Positions 1,395-62,944 of a DNA stretch of 64,000 bases are shown here, in pieces. The notes under the pieces were generated by a model, which searched no databases, was not told where the DNA came from, and saw nothing but the letters and a program-made list of their open reading frames with translations. Both the position numbers and the translations under genes were made by a program. Numbering within the stretch: position 1 is the first letter of the stretch; each line of letters begins with the position of its first letter. The DNA comes from Pontibacter chinhatensis (lineage in GTDB: Bacteria; Bacteroidota; Bacteroidia; Cytophagales; Hymenobacteraceae): assembly GCF_900113285.1 (NCBI RefSeq), contig NZ_FOOT01000005.1, positions 124,001-188,000 of the forward strand, given 5' to 3'.

Positions 1395-1440
1395 ATTTAG
1401 TGCTTTTATAATTCGGGTTTTAAAACCTAAGTTGCGATTA

Positions 1441-1521
1441 ACCCACCCCCGCCCCTCCAAGGAGGGGAATTTCTAAAATTTTATTATTATTCCCCTCCTT
1501 GGAGGGGTTAGGGGTGGGTTT
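1441..1521. repeat. Dispersed G/C-rich inverted repeat (CCCCTCC/GGAGGGG type)
   Basis: Two arms, ACCCACCCCCGCCCCTCC and GGAGGGGTTAGGGGTGGGT, flank an AT-rich centre; each arm also contains the small palindrome CCCCTCCnnGGAGGGG. The same arm sequence recurs at 18068-18098, 21229-21260, 44073-44104 and 62550-62582, three of these inside the large composite element. It lies between two genes of the same direction, with no coding potential. Confidence 0.8.
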
Positions 1522-1600
1522 ACACTTCAGCGAAGTAGGCGTTAATATTTAAAGTATAGCAAAGTATACATCATACTTCACAACCGCACAAAAGTATATC

Positions 1601-12125: not shown

Positions 12126-14570
12126 TCAGAACTGGTACACGACCTGCCACTGCTCGTTTAGGGTAAGCGAGGCATCGAAGGGTTCTCCGGTTTTTTGGGA
12201 GATGAAGCCCTTAATCTTTGGCGTCTTGCCTTTCAGTAGCAGTGCTGCAATCTGCTTTTCCGACAGCTGTTTGCCGCCCATCTCGAACGGCACTACAAAC
12301 TGGCAGCCCTCCCGGAACCGGCTGCAGCCATAAGCAGCTTTTCCCTTCAACAGTTTACCCTGCTTGCAGCGCGGGCATTGCTCAAACGGGTCTTTGGCGG
12401 CGGCTTTTTCTACCAGCTCTATCTGCAGCTGGTTGTTGGTGTCCAGTTTCAGGATGGCGTCAAAGCTTTCGCCTTGCTCGTTTTTAAGTCCTTTGATGGT
12501 GGGGGTCTTACCTTTGCTGAGCAGGGCCTGCACCTGCTTTTCGGTCAGTTCCTTGCCGTGCTGCTCTATTGGGATGAGGAAGCGGCAGCCCTCTTTGTAG
12601 CGGATGCAGCCATAAGCCTTGGATCCTTTGAGGATGTGGCCTTCTTTGCAGGCAGGGCAGGAGCCCAGCCCTTTGGTTGGAGCCGTTTCCTTCTTTTCCG
12701 CTGCCTTGGCTGAGGCTGGCTTTTTGCCTTTGGCGGCAGGTTTTTCCTCCTGCTGCGGCTCCAGCGTCACGGTGGCGCGGTCATACTTTACCTCCTGCAC
12801 CAGGTTGGTAACAAACTGCTCCAACTCCTTCAGGAACGCCTCAGCCTTAAACTCCCCGCCCTCGATCTGGCGCAGCTTGCGTTCCCATAGCCCCGTCATC
12901 TCTGCCGATTTCAGCGTTTCGTTTTTGATCACGCCAATCAGGTCGATGCCCATCTGCGTGGGCACGATTTTCTTTCTGTCCTTGCGGATATACTGCCGCT
13001 TGAACAGGGTTTCGATGATGGCGGCACGGGTAGAGGGACGGCCAATGCCGTTTTCCTTCAGCGCTTCCTTCAACTCCTCGTCGTCCACCTGCCGGCCGGC
13101 TGTTTCCATGGCGCGCAGCAGGGTAGCCTCGGTATACTCTTTGGGCGGGTTGGTCATCTTCTTTTCCAGCAGCGGCTCGTGCGGCCCATGCTCGCCCTTC
13201 TCAAAATGCGGCAGCACACCGGCGGCTTCTTCTTCCTCCTTGCCTTCTTTGCCTGCAGGTGCGTCCGACGATTTCACGTCTTCGGCGCCGTACAGCACGC
13301 GCCAGCCCGGCTCCAGGATCTGCTTGCCTCTTACTCTAAAAGTATAACCCGCCGACTCGGCCATCACTGTGGTGTTGCTCACGATACAGTCCGGGTAAAA
13401 GGCGGCGATGAAGCGGCGCGTGATGATGTCGTATACATCCGCCTCGCGGCCATAGAGGTTGCTGGCCGAGTCGCCGGTCGGGATGATAGCGTGGTGATCG
13501 GTAACTTTATTGTTGTTGAAGACTTTCTTCGTCTTGCGAATCTTGCTTTGCAGCAGCGGCGCTACTTCCTGCCTGTAGTTCGTCAAACCGCCTAAGATGC
13601 CCGGTATTTTTGGGTAGATATCGTCGGGGAGAAAGGTGGTGTCCACGCGAGGGTAGGAGACAACCTTCTTCTCATACAGGCTCTGCACCGTCTTCAGCGT
13701 CTCGTCGGCCGACAGCCCGTGCTTGTTGTTGCACTCAATCTGCAGCGAGGTCAGGTCGAAGAGCTTGGGCGGAGACTCAGTACCTTTCTTCGTCTCCACG
13801 TCCGTTATCGTCAGCTCATCCTGCTTGATGGCCTCCATGATTTTCTGCGCCTCCTCTTCCTTTTGGAAGCGGCCATTGGTGCTGGCGAAGGTGGTGTCGC
13901 GGTACACGGTTTTAAGCTCCCAGTAAGGCTGCGGCACGAAGTTGGCAATCTCGTGGTGGCGGTTGACGATCATGGCCAGCGTAGGCGTCTGCACCCGGCC
14001 GATGGACAGCGTCTGGCGGCCGCCGTTGGCGTACTTGAGCGTGAACAGGCGCGTGGCGTTCAAGCCCAGCAGCCAGTCGCCGATGGCGCGGCTCTTGCCG
14101 GCCTGGTAGAGCAGGTCAAACTCAGAACCCTCTTTCAGCTTGGCGAAGCCCTGGCGGATGGCGTCCTCGGTGAGCGAGGAGATCCAGAGGCGTTTGAAGG
14201 GTTTTCTATACTTGGCCTCGGTCAGCACCCAGCGCTGAATTACTTCCCCCTCCTGGCCGGCGTCACCGCAGTTAATCACTTCCTCAGCGTTTTCCAGCAG
14301 CCTCTTGATGATGCCGAACTGCTTCTGCACACCGCTGTCGTTCATCAGCTTGATGCCATACTTTTCGGGCAGCATGGGCAGGTCGTAGAGGCTCCAACGC
14401 TTCCACTCAGGGCGATAGTCGTCGGGCTCGCGCAGGGTGCAGAAGTGGCCGAAGGTCCAGGTTACCTGGTAGCCGTTGCCCTCAAAGTAGCCGTCTTTTT
14501 TTGTCTTGGCGCCAATCACCATGGCAATCTCGCGGGCTACACTTGGTTTCTCAGCAATGCAGACTTTCAA
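12126..14570 (-). CDS. topB: DNA topoisomerase III (type IA)
   Basis: An 814-residue type IA topoisomerase. The Toprim domain opens with MKVCIAEKPSVAREIA and carries the acidic motif DAGQEGE; the catalytic Tyr lies in SYPRVDTTFL near residue 310. It relaxes negatively supercoiled DNA and resolves single-strand-linked recombination intermediates. The C-terminus has two related modules (near residues 640-715 and 735-814), each with CPxCKxGxxLKG, an AYGC...EGC pair and a KQ(V/I)xALLxKGKTPxIKG helix, i.e. duplicated Toprim C-terminal repeats with four-Cys, possibly zinc-binding, heads. A long Lys/Ala/Pro linker precedes them. Monocistronic. Confidence 0.97.
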   Translation of the reverse strand: MKVCIAEKPSVAREIAMVIGAKTKKDGYFEGNGYQVTWTFGHFCTLREPDDYRPEWKRWSLYDLPMLPEKYGIKLMNDSGVQKQFGIIKRLLENAEEVINCGDAGQEGEVIQRWVLTEAKYRKPFKRLWISSLTEDAIRQGFAKLKEGSEFDLLYQAGKSRAIGDWLLGLNATRLFTLKYANGGRQTLSIGRVQTPTLAMIVNRHHEIANFVPQPYWELKTVYRDTTFASTNGRFQKEEEAQKIMEAIKQDELTITDVETKKGTESPPKLFDLTSLQIECNNKHGLSADETLKTVQSLYEKKVVSYPRVDTTFLPDDIYPKIPGILGGLTNYRQEVAPLLQSKIRKTKKVFNNNKVTDHHAIIPTGDSASNLYGREADVYDIITRRFIAAFYPDCIVSNTTVMAESAGYTFRVRGKQILEPGWRVLYGAEDVKSSDAPAGKEGKEEEEAAGVLPHFEKGEHGPHEPLLEKKMTNPPKEYTEATLLRAMETAGRQVDDEELKEALKENGIGRPSTRAAIIETLFKRQYIRKDRKKIVPTQMGIDLIGVIKNETLKSAEMTGLWERKLRQIEGGEFKAEAFLKELEQFVTNLVQEVKYDRATVTLEPQQEEKPAAKGKKPASAKAAEKKETAPTKGLGSCPACKEGHILKGSKAYGCIRYKEGCRFLIPIEQHGKELTEKQVQALLSKGKTPTIKGLKNEQGESFDAILKLDTNNQLQIELVEKAAAKDPFEQCPRCKQGKLLKGKAAYGCSRFREGCQFVVPFEMGGKQLSEKQIAALLLKGKTPKIKGFISQKTGEPFDASLTLNEQWQVVYQF

Positions 14571-16828: not shown

Positions 16829-17593
16829 ATGTTCTTTATACTTTCCAAGACCCTTGATTTTCTGCTGATGCCCCTGGTATGGGTGCTCGCGCTTTTGTTT
16901 CTGGCGGTGTTTCTGAAGTCGGTTAAATGGCGGCGCATTAGCCTGGTGAGTGCGCTGGTGATGCTCCTGTTTTTCAGCAACCCGTTTTTCGCTAACCTGG
17001 CCTGGCGTGCCTGGGAGGCCAAACCGGTGCCGGTAAGTGAGGTGGGCAACTATGACGTGGCTGTGGTGCTAACAGGCGTTACTTCCTTTAAACCCGACAT
17101 CACCGACCGTGTGCACACCAACAAGGGGGCCGACCGCTTTCTGCACACCCTGCAGCTCTACCGCCTGGGTAAGGTGAATAAGATTCTGATAACCGGTGGC
17201 AAGGGCTTTTTGATGGACGAGATGGTGCCGGAGGCGGAGCAACTGAAGCGCGTGCTGCTGCTGGCTGGTGTGCCCGAGAAAGACCTCATTGTAGAGACCG
17301 GCGCCGTCAATACACGTGAGAATGCCGTGTATGCTGCCCAAGTGCTGGCGCAACACCCCAGCTGGAAGAAAGTGCTGCTGGTCACCTCTGCCTTCCACAT
17401 GCGCCGCTCCGAGGGCTGTTTCCGCAAAGTAGGTGTCACCTTCGACAGCTACCCCACTGATTTCTATTCCTCCGAGCCTATTTTTACCCCGGATTATACT
17501 TTCATGCCCAGCGCCGTCGCCTTCGAGAACTGGCACCACTTAATTCATGAAATAGCGGGGTTTGTAGTGTATAAGGTGTTGGGGTATAGTTAA
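16829..17593 (+). CDS. YdcF/ElyC-family (DUF218) envelope protein
   Basis: Two N-terminal membrane segments (about 5-30 and 35-55) precede a periplasmic DUF218 domain with the motifs VVLTG, KILITGGKG, VETGAVNTRENA and LLVTSAFHMRRS. This arrangement (254 residues) matches ElyC, which affects peptidoglycan and lipid-carrier metabolism in the periplasm; YdcF-like proteins have the same core. The exact reaction is not established. It is convergent with the aldehyde dehydrogenase gene, the gap being filled by the composite repeat. Confidence 0.9.
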   Translation: MFFILSKTLDFLLMPLVWVLALLFLAVFLKSVKWRRISLVSALVMLLFFSNPFFANLAWRAWEAKPVPVSEVGNYDVAVVLTGVTSFKPDITDRVHTNKGADRFLHTLQLYRLGKVNKILITGGKGFLMDEMVPEAEQLKRVLLLAGVPEKDLIVETGAVNTRENAVYAAQVLAQHPSWKKVLLVTSAFHMRRSEGCFRKVGVTFDSYPTDFYSSEPIFTPDYTFMPSAVAFENWHHLIHEIAGFVVYKVLGYS

Positions 17594-17689
17594 CTTTTCG
17601 AGTTTATTTCTTGGTGTAAGCATCCGCTTGTGCCGCTAGTCGCGGCTGTTCCCCCCGCCGGCGAGGTTGCAACTTAACTAACTTGAAGA

Positions 17690-18262
17690 GCCATACTCAT
17701 ACTTTGGCCATACTTTTTATGCTTACCAGTTTATACTTTCATAGCCACTGCTTCCTGTAACTGGACACAAGCTATCCTTGCTAGCTCCCGTTCTTTCTCT
17801 AGTTCCTACTAACCTAACGTTGCATCTCTAACTTGGCTCCCTCCTAGGCCGGGAGGGCTCGCCTTCGGGCATCGCGCGGTGTACATTTCCTTTGCTCCTA
17901 ACGTCACAATTTCGCTGAAGCGAAACCAGAAATCTACAAGGCGCTCAACCCAAAGGCTGGGATAATGTACGATAGCCACTGCCTCTGCTGTTATCTCGAC
18001 CATTGGGAGAGATTTGATTAGAATCTCTCAATGCGTTCGAGAGGACATGGAAAATGGTAAATATAAATTCCCCTCTTGGGAGGGGCTGGGGTGGGTTTAT
18101 ACCTTGTGCGGACAGGTCGCGACCTGTCCGCACAAGGACTGAGGCTATGGAATTCATACTTTGGCTAGAGCAGCTACAGACTCCCCACCTTAGACTACCG
18201 AGAACGGGAGTTCGAAGGTAGCGAGCGTAGCTCTGAGGGGTTAGGGGTGGTTGGACCTGGTA
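17690..18262 (+). repeat. Composite palindromic element, copy A
   Basis: Non-coding element of about 570 bp in a convergent gap. Modules in order: CATAGCC..GCTAGC segment; CCTCCTAGGCCGGGAGG with TCGCCTTCGGGCATCGCGCG; ACAAGGCGCTCAACCCAAAG with its own hairpin; an ATCTCGACC..GGGAGAGATT..AATCTCTC hairpin; CCCCTCTTGGGAGGGG then GTGGGTTTATAC; a 34-bp perfect palindrome; and TTAGACTACCGAGAAC... ending AGGGGTGGTTGGAC. The same order is found in copies B (43.7 kb) and C (62.4 kb, inverted). No ORF in it resembles a protein. Confidence 0.82.
18103..18136. repeat. 34-bp perfect palindrome
   Basis: Arms of 17 bp (CTTGTGCGGACAGGTCG and its exact complement) meet without a loop. The inner 20 bp, GGACAGGTCGCGACCTGTCC, recurs exactly at 44115-44134 and 62519-62538 inside the other two composite copies. 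Confidence 0.9.
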
Positions 18263-18305
18263 AAGTACACTCCCTCCCCTGTATTTAGGGCTGGCGGTTT
18301 TTAAT

Positions 18306-21025: not shown

Positions 21026-21375
21026 GATAGTGCTTCTTTATACTTTTCCAGTAGATGCCCACCCCTATTTCTCCAAGGAGTAAGAGCGTTTCATTCTGGT
21101 AAACTTGCTTTATATGGCGCGAGCGTCCACGCTCGTGACCGGCCATCGTTGGGCCTCCGGCCCAGTCGGATTACAAGTCCGACCTCATAAATAAGGCACG
21201 GGCTGCAAACCCGCGCCAGCGTGTTCTATTCCCCTCCTCGGAGGGGTCAGGGGTGGGTTTGAGAGTAAACAGAAATCAGTTGAACTCTTCAGCTAACAAT
21301 TTTATACTTGAACAGCTGCAGCCTGCCTCTTCCAGCACCAAGCTACAGCCATAAGTATACTTTGAACAGACTAAA
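21026..21375. repeat. Convergent spacer with stacked small palindromes
   Basis: Between two convergent genes lie several hairpins in a row: GCGCGAGCGTCCACGCTCGTG (21118-21138), GGGCCTCCGGCCC (21151-21163), GTCGGATTACAAGTCCGAC (21167-21184), GCACGGGCTGCAAACCCGCG (21197-21216), then CCCCTCCTCGGAGGGG with GGGTGGGTTT (21232-21260). The GCACG..CGCGCCAGCG unit recurs at 62945-62970. AAGTATACTTTG lies just before the next stop. No gene is seen. Confidence 0.7.
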
Positions 21376-42663: not shown

Positions 42664-43251
42664 ATGAGAATGAAGAAGATAAGTAACTACGCGCTCTTGC
42701 TGATGCTGTTGGTTGTTGGCTTTGCGTGTAAAACAAAGAATGACGTAGAGGCCTTCAAGGAGGCAAAATATGATTTGCAAAGTATAGATCAGATGGAGGT
42801 GAACGGCGTTGATTTGCTTAAGAAGAAGCGTCCGCAGGATTTCTCCTTCAACGATGCCGCCACGCTTTACACGGCCTTCTCCCAAAACGCGCTGACCGCT
42901 GTATCCACTATAGGGTTGAACGTGGAGCTACCTGAGGGGAGCCAGGAGCGCACCATGACGGTAACGCAACTGAAATGGCAACTGCTGGTGGACGACAAGC
43001 ATACGCTGAATGGTTTGGTAAGCGAGCCGGTAGAACTCAAAAACGGGCTGAACACCATCACCATCAGCTCGCCGTTAACTTTTGCCACCGATGGCGGCAA
43101 CCAGCCAGACCTGAACAACCTGCTCCGCCTGGCCACGCTCCTGAACAAGGACAGCGCCGACCGGCCTAAGATAACCCTGCAGATAAAGCCCACGATTCAA
43201 ACCTCAGTCGGACCCTTCGAGCTGCCCGCCTTCATCAAGATAAAAGGATAG
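42664..43251 (+). CDS. Lipoprotein with LEA type 2-like domain
   Basis: A 195-residue precursor with lipobox (LLLMLLVVGFAC). The mature region resembles the LEA14/WHy beta-sandwich: YDLQSIDQMEVNGVDLLKK, STIGLNVELPEGS, LQIKPTIQTSVGPFELPAFI, though the match is by pattern only. It follows the DUF2807 lipoprotein by eight bases. The likely location is the outer membrane facing the periplasm. Function unknown. Confidence 0.78.
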   Translation: MRMKKISNYALLLMLLVVGFACKTKNDVEAFKEAKYDLQSIDQMEVNGVDLLKKKRPQDFSFNDAATLYTAFSQNALTAVSTIGLNVELPEGSQERTMTVTQLKWQLLVDDKHTLNGLVSEPVELKNGLNTITISSPLTFATDGGNQPDLNNLLRLATLLNKDSADRPKITLQIKPTIQTSVGPFELPAFIKIKG

Positions 43252-43659: not shown

Positions 43660-43708
43660 CAGCCTCTGCTGTGCCGGTTTTCCGGTGTAGCAGAGGCTGT
43701 TTTATTTA
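43660..43708 (+). terminator. Terminator of the small hypothetical gene
   Basis: AGCCTCTGCT/AGCAGAGGCT, with an inner CCGG/CCGG hairpin, followed by GTTTTATTTAT. Confidence 0.85.
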
Positions 43709-43729
43709 TACTTTATACTTTCCGGCTTA

Positions 43730-44230
43730 TACTTTATGCTTTCATAGCCGCTGCTTCTTTCCACTTGAACCAAGCTATACTTCCAAACCACCGTTCATCC
43801 TCCATCCCCACTTGCCTAAAGTTGCATCTATACTTTAATGCCCTCCCAGGCCGGGAGGCCTCGTTTTCCCGCTCGGCGCTGGGAGCTTTTCCTGCCCTCG
43901 TGCCTCGGGCTGCCTGCGGCACCGGAAAAACTCGCATAGGCGCCTCCCAGAAAAACTGGGAATCATTTAGATTTCTACCTTATTTGTCATCTCGACCTTT
44001 GGGAGAGATCTAAATAGAATTCCGATAGATCTCTCGCGCTGCTCGAGATGACAGTGAATGTGGAATGTATAAATTCCCCTCTTGGGAGGGGCAGGGGTGG
44101 GTTTATACTTGTAGGGACAGGTCGCGACCTGTCCGCACGATAACAGCAGCTATGCAACTTATACTTAAGAAACAGTAATCACAGACTCCCAGCCTTAGAC
44201 AAGGAGGGGCCAGGGGTGGTTGGACCGGGT
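43730..44230 (+). repeat. Composite palindromic element, copy B
   Basis: Same module order as copy A: CATAGCCGCTGCTTC..AAGCTATAC; CCCTCCCAGGCCGGGAGG; a TGTCATCTCGACC..GGGAGAGATCT..AGATCTCTC..CGAGATGACA hairpin (43988-44053); CCCCTCTTGGGAGGGG with GTGGGTTTATAC; GGACAGGTCGCGACCTGTCC (44115-44134); and CCTTAGAC..AGGGGTGGTTGGAC. The last module is shortened and the ACAAGGCGCTC module is replaced. The stretch 44235-44351 holds two AAGTATA heptamers and a -7-like TACCTTCG before the peptidase gene. Confidence 0.82.
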
Positions 44231-44351
44231 ATGGCAGCATTTCTCTAAAGCTAAGGAAAGGCTAACTGTAGGCATATAAAGTATAAGCAGACTATGCTCA
44301 TCCCAAACTTGCCATAACCGCGCGCAACGCTTACCTTCGGTTTTTATACTT

Positions 44352-45269
44352 ATGAAGAAACTACTCACATTCGCTTTTATACTTGCTACTCCTGTTTTGG
44401 GGCTGGCGCAGAAAAGTAAACCCGATGCCGCCACGTTGCTGCGGGATGTAAAGGTGCTGGCCGCCGACTCCATGCAGGGGCGCTTAAGCGGCACCGAAGG
44501 AAACCTCATGGCGCAGGAATACCTCCTGAAGCGTTTTCAGGACCTAGGACTGAAGCCGTTTGGCGATACTTACAAGCAGCATTTCCGAATAGACTCCAGA
44601 AGGGCGCAGGTGGAGCAGGCTACTAACCTGATTGGCTACATTCCCGGAAAGTCAGATAAAGTGATTGTGGTAACCGCTCATTACGACCATGTGGGGCAGC
44701 GCAACGGGGATATCTACAACGGGGCTGACGACAATGCCTCCGGGGTAGGTGCCTTGCTGGCCGCAGCGGCGCATTTCACGAAGCATCCTCCCAAGCACAC
44801 CATCATCTTTGCCGCCCTGGATGGCGAGGAATTGGGTCTGCAAGGCGCCAAAGCCTTTCTGGACAACCCACCGGTGCCTCTGGCCAATATCCTGCTCAAC
44901 GTGAACATGGACATGCTCAGCATTAACAACAAAGGCGAACTATATGCCAGCGGCGCTTACCATTACCCGCAGCTGAAGCCATACTTGCAGAAAGTGAAGC
45001 CCCGCAAGCACGCACGCCTGCTTTTAGGCCACGACAACCCTGCACAGGGCCGCGACGACTGGACCGGCCAGTCGGACCATTTCCGGTTTCATGAGCGGGG
45101 CATCCCCTACGTATACTTTGGGGTAGAGGACCACCCGCACTACCACAAGCCTTCCGACGATTACGAGAACATCAACCCAAACTTTTACCCGGATGCAGCG
45201 GCCCTGGTGATAGACTTTCTGGAGCTGATGGATAATCACTTGCACCGGCTGCCGGCGCGTGCGCAATAG
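44352..45269 (+). CDS. M28-family zinc aminopeptidase/exopeptidase
   Basis: A 305-residue precursor with a signal peptide (MKKLLTFAFILATPVLGLAQ). M28 motifs are complete: VTAHYDHVG (zinc His), NGADDNASG (bridging Asp), DGEELGLQG (catalytic and zinc Glu), NVNMDML (Asp) and a late zinc His in DHPHYHKPSDD. It removes N-terminal residues from peptides in the periplasm or outside. Monocistronic as far as spacing shows. Its start follows a TATACTT heptamer directly. Confidence 0.93.
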   Translation: MKKLLTFAFILATPVLGLAQKSKPDAATLLRDVKVLAADSMQGRLSGTEGNLMAQEYLLKRFQDLGLKPFGDTYKQHFRIDSRRAQVEQATNLIGYIPGKSDKVIVVTAHYDHVGQRNGDIYNGADDNASGVGALLAAAAHFTKHPPKHTIIFAALDGEELGLQGAKAFLDNPPVPLANILLNVNMDMLSINNKGELYASGAYHYPQLKPYLQKVKPRKHARLLLGHDNPAQGRDDWTGQSDHFRFHERGIPYVYFGVEDHPHYHKPSDDYENINPNFYPDAAALVIDFLELMDNHLHRLPARAQ

Positions 45270-52726: not shown

Positions 52727-55700
52727 ATGCAAAAGTTTATACAAGGCATTGTCGCCTTCTCGCTGAAGAACTCCATCATCGTGTTCTTTCTGACGGGATT
52801 GTTATTAGTGGCAGGGGTTATCAGCTACATCAACACACCCATCGAGGCGTTCCCGGATGTAACCAACACCCGCGCCCGTATCATTACCCAGTGGCCGGGC
52901 AGAAGCGCCGAGGAGGTGGAGAAATTCATCACACTGCCCCTCATGAAGGAGATGAACACCATCCCCAAGAAGTCGGAGGTGCGCTCCATCTCGCTTTTTG
53001 GCCTGTCGGTGGTGACGGTGATTTTTGAGGATGGGGTGGAAGATTTCTACGCGCAGCAGTATGCCGCCAACCGCTTGCAGGGCGTGGACTTGCCGGACGG
53101 TGCGGATGCAGGCATTGAGCCGCCTTACGGGGCCACCGGTGAGATTTTCCGGTATGTGCTCAAGAGCAAAAGGCCCATTAAAGAGCTCACCGCTATCCAC
53201 GACTGGGTGATTGAGCGGGAGCTAGTCGCAGTGCCCGGCGTGGCCGATGTGGTGAGCTTTGGAGGCGAGGAAAAAATCTACGAAATCCGGATTAACCCTA
53301 CCAAGCTGGCCAACTACGACCTGTCTCCCCTGGAAGTATACGAGGCAGTGTCGAAGAGCAACATCAACGTGGGGGGCGACGTGATAGAGCGCGGAAGCCA
53401 GGCCTATGTCGTGCGCGGCGTAGGCTTGTTGGAGAGCATTGCCGATATCGAAAACATTCTGATAGAGGTAAGGGGAACCAACCCCATCCTGGTAAAGCAC
53501 GTGGCTGAGGTGGAAGTATCTGCCAAGCCGCGCTTAGGCGTGGTGGGCCTGCAGGACGAGGATGATTTGGTGCAGGGCATCGTCATCATGCTTCGCGGAG
53601 AAAACCCGGGCGACGTTATCGCGCGGCTAAAGGATAGAATTGCCGACCTGAACGACCGCATCCTACCGAAGGATGTACAGATAGAACCCTTTATCGACCG
53701 CACCGACCTGGTGGATGCCACAGTGAGCACCGTGAGCAAGAACCTGGTGGAGGGAATCTTCCTCGTATCTGTCATCGTCTTTATCTTTCTGTTCAACTGG
53801 CGCACTACCGTTATCGTCGCCTCCGTTATCCCGCTTTCCTTTTTGTTTGCCATTGTGATGCTGCGCATCCAGGGCCTGCCGGCCAACCTGATTTCCTTGG
53901 GCGCCATTGACTTTGGCCTGTTGCTGGAAGGTACGCTGGTGATTGTGGAGACGGTTTTTGTGGCGATGGAAAGGCGGGCGCACCAGCTCGGGATGGAGCG
54001 GTTTAACCGAATGAGTAAATCAGGGCTGATAAAGAAGAGCGCGGGCAGTGTGGCTACCTACATCGTGTTCGCCCAGATTATCCTCATCGTGGCCCTGCTT
54101 CCTATCTTCTCTTTCCAGAAAGTAGAAGGGAAGATGTTCTCTCCGCTGGCCTTTACGCTGGGGTACGCTCTGCTTGGGTCGCTGCTGCTGAGCATCACCT
54201 ACGTACCTGCCCTGTGCAAAGTGATGCTGAAAAGAGACATCAAGGAGAAGGAGAACTTCATCTCCCGCTTCTTCCGCAATAACCTGTTCAACCTGTTTCT
54301 GTGGAGCTTCAGGCGTAAAAAGGCCGTTGTGGCTGGCTTTGTGGGTATCCTGGCCGTCTGCACGGCAAGCTTTCTGTTCTACGGCTCTGAGTTTATACCC
54401 AAGCTGAACGAGGGAGCCCTCTACGTAAGGGCCACGCTGCCCAACAGTGTGAATATTGAGGAATCGCAGCGGCTGGCCAGGGAGATGAAGGCCAAGCTCC
54501 GGGAGTTTGAAGAGGTGAAGTTTGTGCTCAACCAGGTAGGGCGACCCAACGACGGCACCGACCCGACAGGCTTCTTCAACATCGAGTTCCACATCCAGCT
54601 GTACCCAGAAAAGGAGTGGAGCCGGAAGATAAATAAGGACGCACTGATTGATGAGATGAGGCAGGCGCTGCAGGCCTACCCGGGCATTGTATTGGGTTTC
54701 AGCCAGCCCATCCAGGACAACGTGGAAGAGTATGTGGCAGGCGTGAAGAGCTCTTTGGTGGTGAAAATATTTGGGGACGACCTCTTTGAGCTGGAAGGGT
54801 ATGCCGAGCAGGTGGCCAATAGCCTGCGGGATGTGAAAGGCATCGAAGACCTGAACATTTACCGGAACATCGGCCTGCCCGAGCTACGGGTGCAACTGCA
54901 CGACCACAAGCTAGCCCGCTACGGGGTGGATATTTCCGATGCCCAGGCGGTAGTGGAGATGGCCATAGGTGGCCGGGCGGCTACCAAGTTCTATGAGAAT
55001 GAGCGCATGTTTGATGTGCGGCTGCGCTTTGCCAAAGAGTATAGGGATGATGACCAGAAAATCGGCAACATCCTCATCCCGACCAAAGACAACCGCAAGA
55101 TTCCTCTGAAGGAGATAGCCACGATACAGTACCTGACGGGCCCGGCCTTTATCTACCGCGAGGGCAGTAGCCGCTACATTGCCGTTGGCTTTAGCATCGA
55201 GGGAAGGGATTTGGGCAGCACGATTGCGGAGGCGAAGGCAAAAGTTGCCAGTGAGGTGCAGCTGCCGGCTGTGAACAAAATGGTGTGGGCGGGCGAGTTT
55301 GAAAGCAAAGAGCGGGCAAGCAAGCAGTTGGCCGTGATTGTTCCGGCGGTTTTGCTGCTCATCCTCTTCCTGCTATACTTTAACTTCGGCACCGTCAAGG
55401 ACACGCTCATTGCAGCTAGCACTATCCCTTATGCCTTTATTGGGGGCTTTATCTCGCTTTGGGCAACGCAAACCATCTTTGGCATTTCGGCGGGAATTGG
55501 ATTCATCATCCTGTTCGGGGTCAACACCATAAACAGTATCATTCTGATTGCCGTGATGAAAGAGAACATGAGGCGAATGTCGCTGAAAGAGGCCATCAGC
55601 AACGGCGTGTATACCCGCATCCGGCCTATCGTGATGATTGCCCTGATGGGCTCTATGGGCTTGCTTCCGGCCGCGCTCTCGACGGGGATGGGCTCTGAGA

Positions 55701-61741: not shown

Positions 61742-62305
61742 ATGATAACCTACCAGGAGGCCAGGGAACTGCTCGAAAGTATGACCCGAAGTGAAAGCTT
61801 GCTGCGCCATGCTTATACCGTGGAATTGGTGATGCGCGCCTATGCGGCCAAATTGGGGGAAAACGAAGAGCAGTGGGGCATCACCGGCCTGCTGCACGAC
61901 GCTGACTACGAGGCCCACCCGGATCAACACCCTAATGTGATTGTAGGCTTGCTGCGGGAGCGTGGTGAGGAGGAGATGGCGCATGCTATTTCGGCGCACT
62001 ACACCAAGTGGGGTGTACCCTACAACTCGCTGCTGGATAAGGCGCTGCTTGCCTGTGATGAGATCACGGGCTTTATTGTAGCCTGCGCCTTAATCCGTCC
62101 GGGAAGGTTGCAGGGGCTGGAGGCAAAGTCGGTGGTGAAGCGGCTGGGGCAGAAGAGTTTTGCCGCCTCCGTTGACAGGGAGGAGGTACGCCTCGGTGCC
62201 GAGAAGTTTGGCGTGGACCTGAAGGAGCACATCAGCTTCATCATCGGGGTACTACAACAGCACCAGCAGGAGCTGCAACTGGAGCCAGTGGGAGAGCAGG
62301 CGTAA
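61742..62305 (+). CDS. HD-domain phosphohydrolase-like protein
   Basis: A 187-residue protein. The HD superfamily motifs are visible: His in LLRHAYTVELVM, the HD doublet in TGLLHDADYEAHPDQHP, His in AISAHYTKW and Asp in LACDEITG. These bind two divalent metals and cleave phosphoester bonds, often nucleotides. The family resembles YedJ/HDIG proteins used in many contexts; substrate unknown. It stands alone with a terminator behind it, next to composite copy C. Confidence 0.88.
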   Translation: MITYQEARELLESMTRSESLLRHAYTVELVMRAYAAKLGENEEQWGITGLLHDADYEAHPDQHPNVIVGLLRERGEEEMAHAISAHYTKWGVPYNSLLDKALLACDEITGFIVACALIRPGRLQGLEAKSVVKRLGQKSFAASVDREEVRLGAEKFGVDLKEHISFIIGVLQQHQQELQLEPVGEQA

Positions 62306-62368: not shown

Positions 62369-62387
62369 AGATAGGTTTTAGTGATAC

Positions 62388-62930
62388 CGGGTCCAATCAC
62401 CCCTTACCCCTCAGAGCTACGCTCGCTACCTTCGAACTCGTGTTCTCGGTAGTCTAAGGAGGGGAGCTCTGTGATTGCTTTGGCTGAAGTATAAATCACA
62501 TAGCCTCGGTTCTCGCGCGGACAGGTCGCGACCTGTCCCTACAAAGTATAAACCCACCCCTAACCCCTCCCGAGAGGGGAATTATACTTACTTCTTCTCC
62601 TGTCATCTCGAGCTGCGCAAGAGATCTATCGGGAACTCTAACCAGATCTCTCCTAAGGGTCGAGATGACAGCAAGGGCAGGAGCTATCGACCTCTTCCCA
62701 GCCTTTGGGTTGAGCGCCTTGTGGATGTTGCGGTGCCCGAAGGGCAGCCCGCAGCGGAGCGAGGAGCAGCTTCAGGCACACCGCGCGATGCCCGAAGGCG
62801 AGGCCTCCGGCCTGGGAGGGAGCCAGAGCTGGAGGTGAAACAGTAGCTTAAGTAAGTCTTGAGGATGAACTGGAGCTAGTAAGGATAGCTTGGTTCGGAT
62901 TGCGGGAAACGGCGGCTATGAAAGTATAGC
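62388..62930 (-). repeat. Composite palindromic element, copy C (inverted)
   Basis: Read on the minus strand it repeats copy A: CTCCCTCCCAGGCCGGAGGC with TCGCCTTCGGGCATCGCGCG; ACAAGGCGCTCAACCCAAAG; TGTCATCTCGACCC..AGAGATCT..AGATCTCT..CGAGATGACA; CCCCTCTCGGGAGGGG with GTGGGTTTATAC; GGACAGGTCGCGACCTGTCC (62519-62538); and TTAGACTACCGAGAAC..GTAGCTCTGAGGGG. It fills a convergent gap. Runs of up to 20-50 identical bases with copy A. Confidence 0.82.
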
Positions 62931-62944
62931 CAAAGTATAAAAAG

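Follow-up and report, generated by a model that had tools for sequence, protein, structure and literature searches.

The closest described kind of element to the one we report here is the composite intergenic mosaic of the REP/BIME and NIME type. REPs are described as high-copy intergenic palindromes that lie mainly between convergent and unidirectional genes (PMC3733652), and an account of other repeat families gives NIMEs a length of 70–200 bp and presents the BOX element of pneumococcus as an ordered modular repeat that has a predicted fold and varies in size at orthologous sites (PMC3049150). REPINs are described as intragenomic sequence populations that show compensatory hairpin changes and are duplicated by a RAYT (PMC3116915, PMC8049555). 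Whether REPs undergo gene conversion is the question in the title of Higgins et al. 1988, a paper cited in PMC12306157 and PMC3116915. Among the matches listed from open-licence full texts, we found no description of the present family or of linkage equilibrium among intergenic repeats.

The 64,000-nucleotide stretch of Pontibacter chinhatensis DNA that we analyzed as a whole (the window) contains three copies of the element, A, B, and an inverted C, which are colinear along the whole element when compared within the window. A left arm is followed by a core (a top hairpin and a three-way junction), the hairpin modules M3, M4, and M5, and finally a right module (Table 1). By ORF calls, copies A and C each lie between convergent genes, whose ends are at 17593 and 18306 for A and at 62305 and 63416 for C, and copy B lies between tandem genes on the plus strand (42664–43251 and 44352–45269). 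The ORF listing holds only small frames whose place and strand vary between copies, and no protein-coding capacity is evident. The first-pass annotation of this DNA had described hairpin modules in one shared order, present three times in intergenic gaps, twice between convergent genes, and without an encoded protein, and the profile and ORF calls bear it out on each of these points. It had placed copy A at 17690–18262; the right end stands, and the left end is to be moved to about 17666.

Table 1. Positions of the element copies, their modules, and isolated modules in the window.
Feature	Position	Strand	Basis
Element copy A, whole	17666..18262	+	Profile match, model 3-574, 541.5 bits
Copy A core top hairpin, GGCC / loop GGGA / GGGC, one mismatch	17846..17858	+	Covariation helix 1
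Copy A core three-way junction, stem GCCTT/AAGGC	17861..17957	+	Covariation helices 2-6
Copy A mid hairpin M3, TGTCATCTCGA...TCGAGATGACA type	17989..18049	+	Alignments, slot typing
Copy A M4, CCCCTC..GAGGGG-type hairpin then GGGGTGGG	18067..18098	+	Window comparison, profile
Copy A M5, perfect palindrome around GGACAGGTCGCGACCTGTCC	18102..18137	+	Inverted-repeat search
Copy A right module, sharp end, optional ~40-base insert	18138..18262	+	Alignments, slot typing
Element copy B	43702..44231	+	Profile match, model 41-574, 414.4 bits
Element copy C, inverted	62385..62941	-	Profile match, model 51-574, 472.8 bits
M4 alone, two inverted copies, outside any element	1436..1528	.	Profile search of window
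M4-to-right-module fragment, outside any full element	21226..21321	+	Profile search of window

Aligned copies share a sharp right end (...GGGGTTAGGGGTGGTTGGACCCGGTA) and a ragged left end that is rich in other palindromes. An inverted-repeat search of copy A returned a single inverted pair, the M5 palindrome, and no terminal inverted pair of 12 or more bases. The outer arms of its junction (17874–17890 with 17928–17944) enclose hairpin 1 (17891–17909) and hairpin 2 (17910–17925). Other copies carry a hairpin of the CTGTCCCCTTGAGG type in the M3 slot instead, or none, and the M5 of copy B is tagged, with GTAG at 44111–44114 followed by 44115–44134. A further hairpin outside the element, a unit of the CTCCCTCCCCTGTTTTTAGGGGAGGG type, directly follows several copies (18270–18299 in the window, and L012, L017, and L018).

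Used as a DNA query against the genome, copy A gave 278 first-look candidates and at least 40 scored places, and an iterated profile of 575 positions matches these 40 loci together with the window copies. Counting window copy B with the 40 loci, 40 of the 41 own chains span the profile from position 65 or below to position 543 or above; the remaining chain, L022, ends at position 452. Copies do differ by module loss, as had been proposed: six chains (L011, L024, L027, L035, L036, and L039) have a middle gap of 68–183 positions. Several chains carry an extra left-part fragment upstream (e.g., L004, L014, L024, and L032). A 25-base core pattern, with up to three mismatches allowed, matches 137 times in the 5.07-Mb genome (69 on the plus strand, 68 on the minus strand), whereas its reversed control has no match, and the family has one main module order. 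The pattern named beforehand as refuting a single unit, with modules randomly ordered and never joined, was not found, though some modules stand alone in places.

The exact 29-base core pattern occurs in 34 stretches, all from Pontibacter records and 31 of them from P. mucosus. The whole consensus is matched in 26 of 39 genomes, comprising all 25 Pontibacter sampled (our own included) and, weakly, one distant genome. In a survey that scored five candidates per genome, the core alone is matched in 54 of 150 genomes of the family, representing three of six genera; 39 of 50 Pontibacter genomes have it and 11 give no match. Elsewhere among the species, the core is followed by different hairpins, often M5. 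Chaining of matches gave 243 chains, 129 with at least 200 aligned columns, of which 119 are distinct (41 own, 65 from P. mucosus, and 13 from others); the scanned P. mucosus loci include 31 that derive from the exact 29-base match, a biased sample. A check found no double-counted copy among the 119. Copies differ by ≈22%, and no exact 150-mer is common to two of the 119 within one species.

The window is also rich in the heptamer AAGTATA: its 64 kb have 164 occurrences, where base composition would predict 5.5, and 85 of them fall within predicted genes, which make up 81% of the window. Counts over the whole window and the stretches L064–L083 give comparable densities for P. mucosus, G021, G014, and G023 (2.2–2.9 per kb) and lower ones for G012, G001, and G020. 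The heptamer is rare in G018, with 5 occurrences in 20 kb, and AACTATAG takes its place there with 36. We read this as an iterated short motif that varies from lineage to lineage. By eye, heptad-like repeat runs of the AACTTTCTAACTTCTAAACTC type also lie near gene ends at site A in several of the farther Pontibacter species (G042, G018, G047, G045, G048, and G054).

The 120-nt core is predicted to be a three-way junction with strong covariation. Across 54 cores, taken from several species of Pontibacter and from one other genus (seven of the 61 extracted, with cut or shifted ends, were left out), 90.3% of the cells in 36 pairs and six helices are paired, compared with 81.3% after shuffling and 34–48% when the structure is slid, a comparison favored by the structure having been drawn partly from the same sequences. 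Both sides have changed in 23 of the 36 pairs, in 143 cells against 42.5 after shuffling, which substantiates the paired stem changes already suspected from the three copies. Four of five covariation measures lie above all 500 shuffles, the exception being the number of pair types (35 further types against 33.7, no excess). Five matched types of outer arm occur, and the two arms match in 94 of the 105 copies with both arms typed (110 cores were extracted from the 119 copies) though they lie 60–70 bases apart (Cramer V 0.83). In addition, a triplet in the loop of the top hairpin is complementary to an upstream triplet in 51 of the 58 cores, out of 61, that the script read; five of the other seven read as CTC/GAG by eye.

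Such a fold could belong to a structured noncoding RNA family with compensatory evolution of its stems, such as an element acting in 3'-UTR stability or in termination, and the three-way junction with its covariation across several species and another genus, the loop-triplet complementarity, and the placement after genes would all suit it. By longest-ORF calls, 18 of 40 copies lie between convergent genes, 19 between tandem genes, and three between divergent genes, a convergent over divergent preference (P = 0.0015) in a genome whose window holds 11 gene pairs of each of these two kinds. However, the tandem copies point about equally in both directions relative to the genes (10 and 9), and the window has no Rfam match at gathering score. 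Structured RNAs usually show far more G-U pairs than we find: such pairs fill 8 of 1898 cells on the window strand and 34 on the other. Their near-absence points to pairing maintained as a DNA palindrome. We regard the RNA family as a possible reading, though on the unlikely side; of the RNA-structured element first suggested, the covarying fold stands. Pairing could be kept at the level of DNA by hairpin-templated correction, whole-hairpin exchange, or selection on DNA structure.

The sites of the element are stable, with no sign of current transposition. Comparing 264 kb of our genome, window included, with the matching stretches of P. mucosus (G013), we found the core at the same site in P. 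mucosus for 18 of 19 own core-bearing sites; reciprocally, all 18 P. mucosus core sites are occupied in our genome, and the orientation is identical in all 18. At the nineteenth site, contig position 477408, only the right part remains in P. mucosus, and no whole-element insertion polymorphism exists among the 19. Places with single modules partly differ between the species: position 469527 has M3 in our genome and the right module in P. mucosus. The idea of a non-autonomous mobile element finds no support as regards present-day mobility, and an active transposon or MITE is rejected for the present, by these shared sites. Neither a clean empty site nor a target-site duplication was seen; at site A, the flanks in the farther Pontibacter have diverged too far for a duplication to be delimited. 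Among 30 Pontibacter genomes examined, site A has the element in seven (G000, G013, G012, G021, G023, G051, and G060), only the right-hand part in G014 (13509–13635), single-module matches in G020, G001, G006, G017, and G039, and no profile match in 17. Site B is occupied in G013, G021, G012, G014, and G023 (52884–53198 in the last), and site C in G013, G021, G012, and G014; the comparison with G023 covered sites A and B. At site A of G060 (L174), both core-stem arms carry a palindromic insert, GGGGGTAGGGGCCCTC with its complement, and G051 (L173) has a shorter insert (GGGGGATACCCCC) on one side.

Element content is not inherited with the site, and a weak orthologous signal remains. Genes of the two species are 92.6% identical (80.6% at 4-fold degenerate sites; n = 8375), and other intergenic DNA is 89.8% identical with 0.9% gaps and 11% unaligned. 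Of orthologous elements A and B, 52% and 43%, respectively, do not align, and the remainder is 80–83% identical; element C shows 84% identity, with gaps making up 8% and unaligned sequence 2%. Over 25 pairs drawn from copies similar enough to the profile, two of them (L002 and L038) resting on one aligned flank and with the one-flank candidates L007, L025, and L027 left out, orthologous copies have a mean identity of 0.763 against 0.755 for nonorthologous ones (all segments; P = 0.054). Only one of eight segments, the right module, is above chance (0.806 versus 0.786; P = 0.004), and in 11 pairs the ortholog came no higher than 11th by identity, and at worst last, among up to 65. In several pairs, orthologous mid hairpins were even below random; inversion of the hairpin was considered and rejected, as the alignments show a different hairpin type. 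The same allele is shared in 6 of 19, 3 of 18, 5 of 15, 7 of 25, 11 of 25, and 14 of 23 sites for six slots, with 5.0, 4.0, 3.9, 9.2, 13.4, and 14.6 expected, so that all six are at chance level. Rare variants of own copies, by comparison, recur in the ortholog in 17 of 347 cases (4.9%) and in nonorthologs in 166 of 8686 (1.9%; P = 0.008), a weak sharing that points to eroded common ancestry and not to independent insertion. Identity within the two genomes (0.784 and 0.774) is no higher than between the species (0.778), and the consensus of one species matches that of the other at 95.5% identity; the allele pools therefore look old and shared.

Linkage along the element decays over tens of bases. 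Between two-state columns of the 41 own copies, mean r2 is 0.33 at 1–5 bases, 0.17 at 6–15, and 0.045 at 16–30 (shuffled, ≈0.03), and beyond ≈60 bases it is at the shuffled level. In the 65 P. mucosus copies it falls with distance from 0.27 to 0.041 and 0.023 (shuffled, 0.02), and in 30 copies of the two-contig genome G021 from 0.30 to 0.13, 0.080, 0.062 at 31–60 bases, and 0.045–0.054 beyond (shuffled, 0.040–0.047). A simulated family without exchange holds r2 at 0.53–0.59 at every distance; being a Kingman tree less diverged (0.879 identity) than the real family, it illustrates how the statistic behaves and is no fitted null. In both our genome and P. mucosus, most pairs of segments have uncorrelated distance matrices, except for the neighboring core segments c3 and c4 (r 0.61 and 0.39), mid with M4-5 in our own (0.41), and a few further weak pairs (r 0.08–0.17; P 0.015–0.025), whereas within a segment the odd columns correlate with the even ones at r 0.21–0.83, save c1 (0.08 and 0.17). 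Adjacent core hairpin slots are still associated (Cramer V 0.44–0.61 overall and 0.61–0.67 in own copies; all P ≤ 0.01), so shuffling inside the core is not free, and the coupling of the two outer arms exceeds this level both overall and in own copies (0.84 in the latter). Short tracts thus seem to be exchanged between dispersed copies, and without crossover, because the shared sites keep both flanks; our genome and P. mucosus are the closest strain pair compared, and no event was caught directly. The modules are probably alternative cassettes swapped between copies, a pattern beyond the reach of reading one genome.

We consider it probable that the family consists of old noncoding composite palindromic spacers, similar to REP/BIME elements, whose hairpin alleles are re-assorted by non-crossover exchange at fixed sites. 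Each copy is a series of ordered slots, each filled by one of several hairpin alleles, and the alleles are re-assorted between copies over tens of bases while the flanks stay put. The exchange may proceed by ectopic gene conversion or by hairpin template switching between copies, in either case without crossover, and repair or selection might then restore full pairing to mismatched stems. The element could persist through a role of the folded DNA after genes, buffering or terminating convergent transcription, or else as a remnant substrate of RAYT-type HUH transposases.

As the agent of exchange we take general non-crossover recombination as the default, with a hairpin nuclease of the RAYT-type HUH class as a live alternative. 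The genome contains three Y1_Tnp (RAYT-type) genes with open frames of 181–188 aa (L041, L042, and L043); within ≈1.5 kb on each side of these loci the element profile has no match. By eye, each of the three genes lies beside palindromes of its own (GGACATCCTTGTCC, GCCAGTTTGCAACTGGC, and GCGAATCTGTGATTCGC), which are unlike the element. Among 50 Pontibacter genomes, 37 have both RAYT and the core, six RAYT only, two the core only (G002 and G011, where no RAYT was detected), and five neither (Fisher P = 0.0036, phylogeny uncorrected). Copying by reverse transcriptase was also considered and rejected, our genome having no RVT_1 match. A stronger version of the nuclease alternative would make the copies an intragenomic sexual population, with fixed docking sites between which a dedicated hairpin nuclease (RAYT-type HUH or similar) exchanges folded single-stranded cassettes; allele classes would thereby be kept alive across species and the arms paired as a unit. 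We think this version unlikely.

Missing linkage and a missing orthologous signal are also what a hypermutable, vertically inherited element would produce if it mutated fast between a few fold-allowed states without any exchange, and the core fold is indeed constrained. The alleles, however, are multibase words (both outer arms of type t4, for instance, differ from those of t1 at numerous positions), and identical words turn up in unlinked copies and across several species, which does not readily follow from point mutation; moreover, the other intergenic DNA is not hypermutable. Hypermutability is accordingly improbable in our judgment. Independent insertion, or replacement of whole elements at hot-spot sites by newly transposed copies, would account for different content at the same sites, and the three Y1 transposase genes and the co-occurrence of RAYT and core in Pontibacter, uncorrected for phylogeny, could be read in its favor. 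We judge it quite improbable, as a whole-element swap would keep linkage along the element, of which we find little or none, and orientation at the shared sites is invariant, rare variants are residually shared between orthologs, the RAYT genes have no element nearby, and no copy pair is nearly identical. That the mosaics are assembly chimeras of short-read genomes is scarcely credible: our genome (25 contigs) and P. mucosus are drafts, but the copies differ by ≈22%, contigs reach 1.28 Mb, and the linkage pattern recurs in the two-contig G021.

On the favored reading of exchange at fixed sites, the place and the sequence of a repeat, usually inherited together, are separated here. The family suggests that, within a single genome, intergenic repeats of bacteria can come close to linkage equilibrium, and it offers a natural assay of short-tract ectopic exchange in bacteria. 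Its stems, covarying almost without G-U pairs, provide a test case for the upkeep of DNA palindromes versus selection on RNA. Dating of repeats, repeat phylogenies, and covariation-based discovery of RNAs can all be misled by families of this kind. The old question of gene conversion among REPs becomes directly testable, and our ortholog and linkage tests lend it population-genetic support in a larger element.

Like REP and BIME sequences, the element consists of high-copy intergenic palindromes with a similar preference of gene setting, in a genome with RAYT-type genes. It differs from them in lining up different hairpins in a set order over half a kilobase, in having a core that occurs in three genera of the family, in the apparent exchange of content at fixed sites, and in that none of the three RAYT genes is seen flanked by it. 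The GTAG-tagged REP, a 20–40-bp palindrome with an unpaired GTAG at one end, fits only M5, whose palindrome is by eye preceded by GTAG in 13 of the 18 copies aligned (copy A is without the tag), and not the whole element. Where a BIME spaces its REPs evenly in alternating orientation, the element has several different palindromes in fixed order and no single alternating REP. NIMEs resemble it as composite intergenic mosaics of repeat units, but it is ≈570 bp long, has a fixed module order, and belongs to another phylum. The repeat units of NIMEs are bounded by ≈20-bp inverted repeats (dRS3). With BOX it has in common a modular and ordered build, a foldable sequence, and a size that varies at orthologous sites; set apart from BOX (boxA-boxB(n)-boxC) by description, the element is larger, shows no tandem central module, and varies in alleles, not in copy number. 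REPINs are a parallel at the level of populations, since both are intragenomic sequence populations with compensatory hairpin changes; whereas REPINs are duplicated by RAYT, the element keeps its sites fixed while its cassettes appear to recombine.
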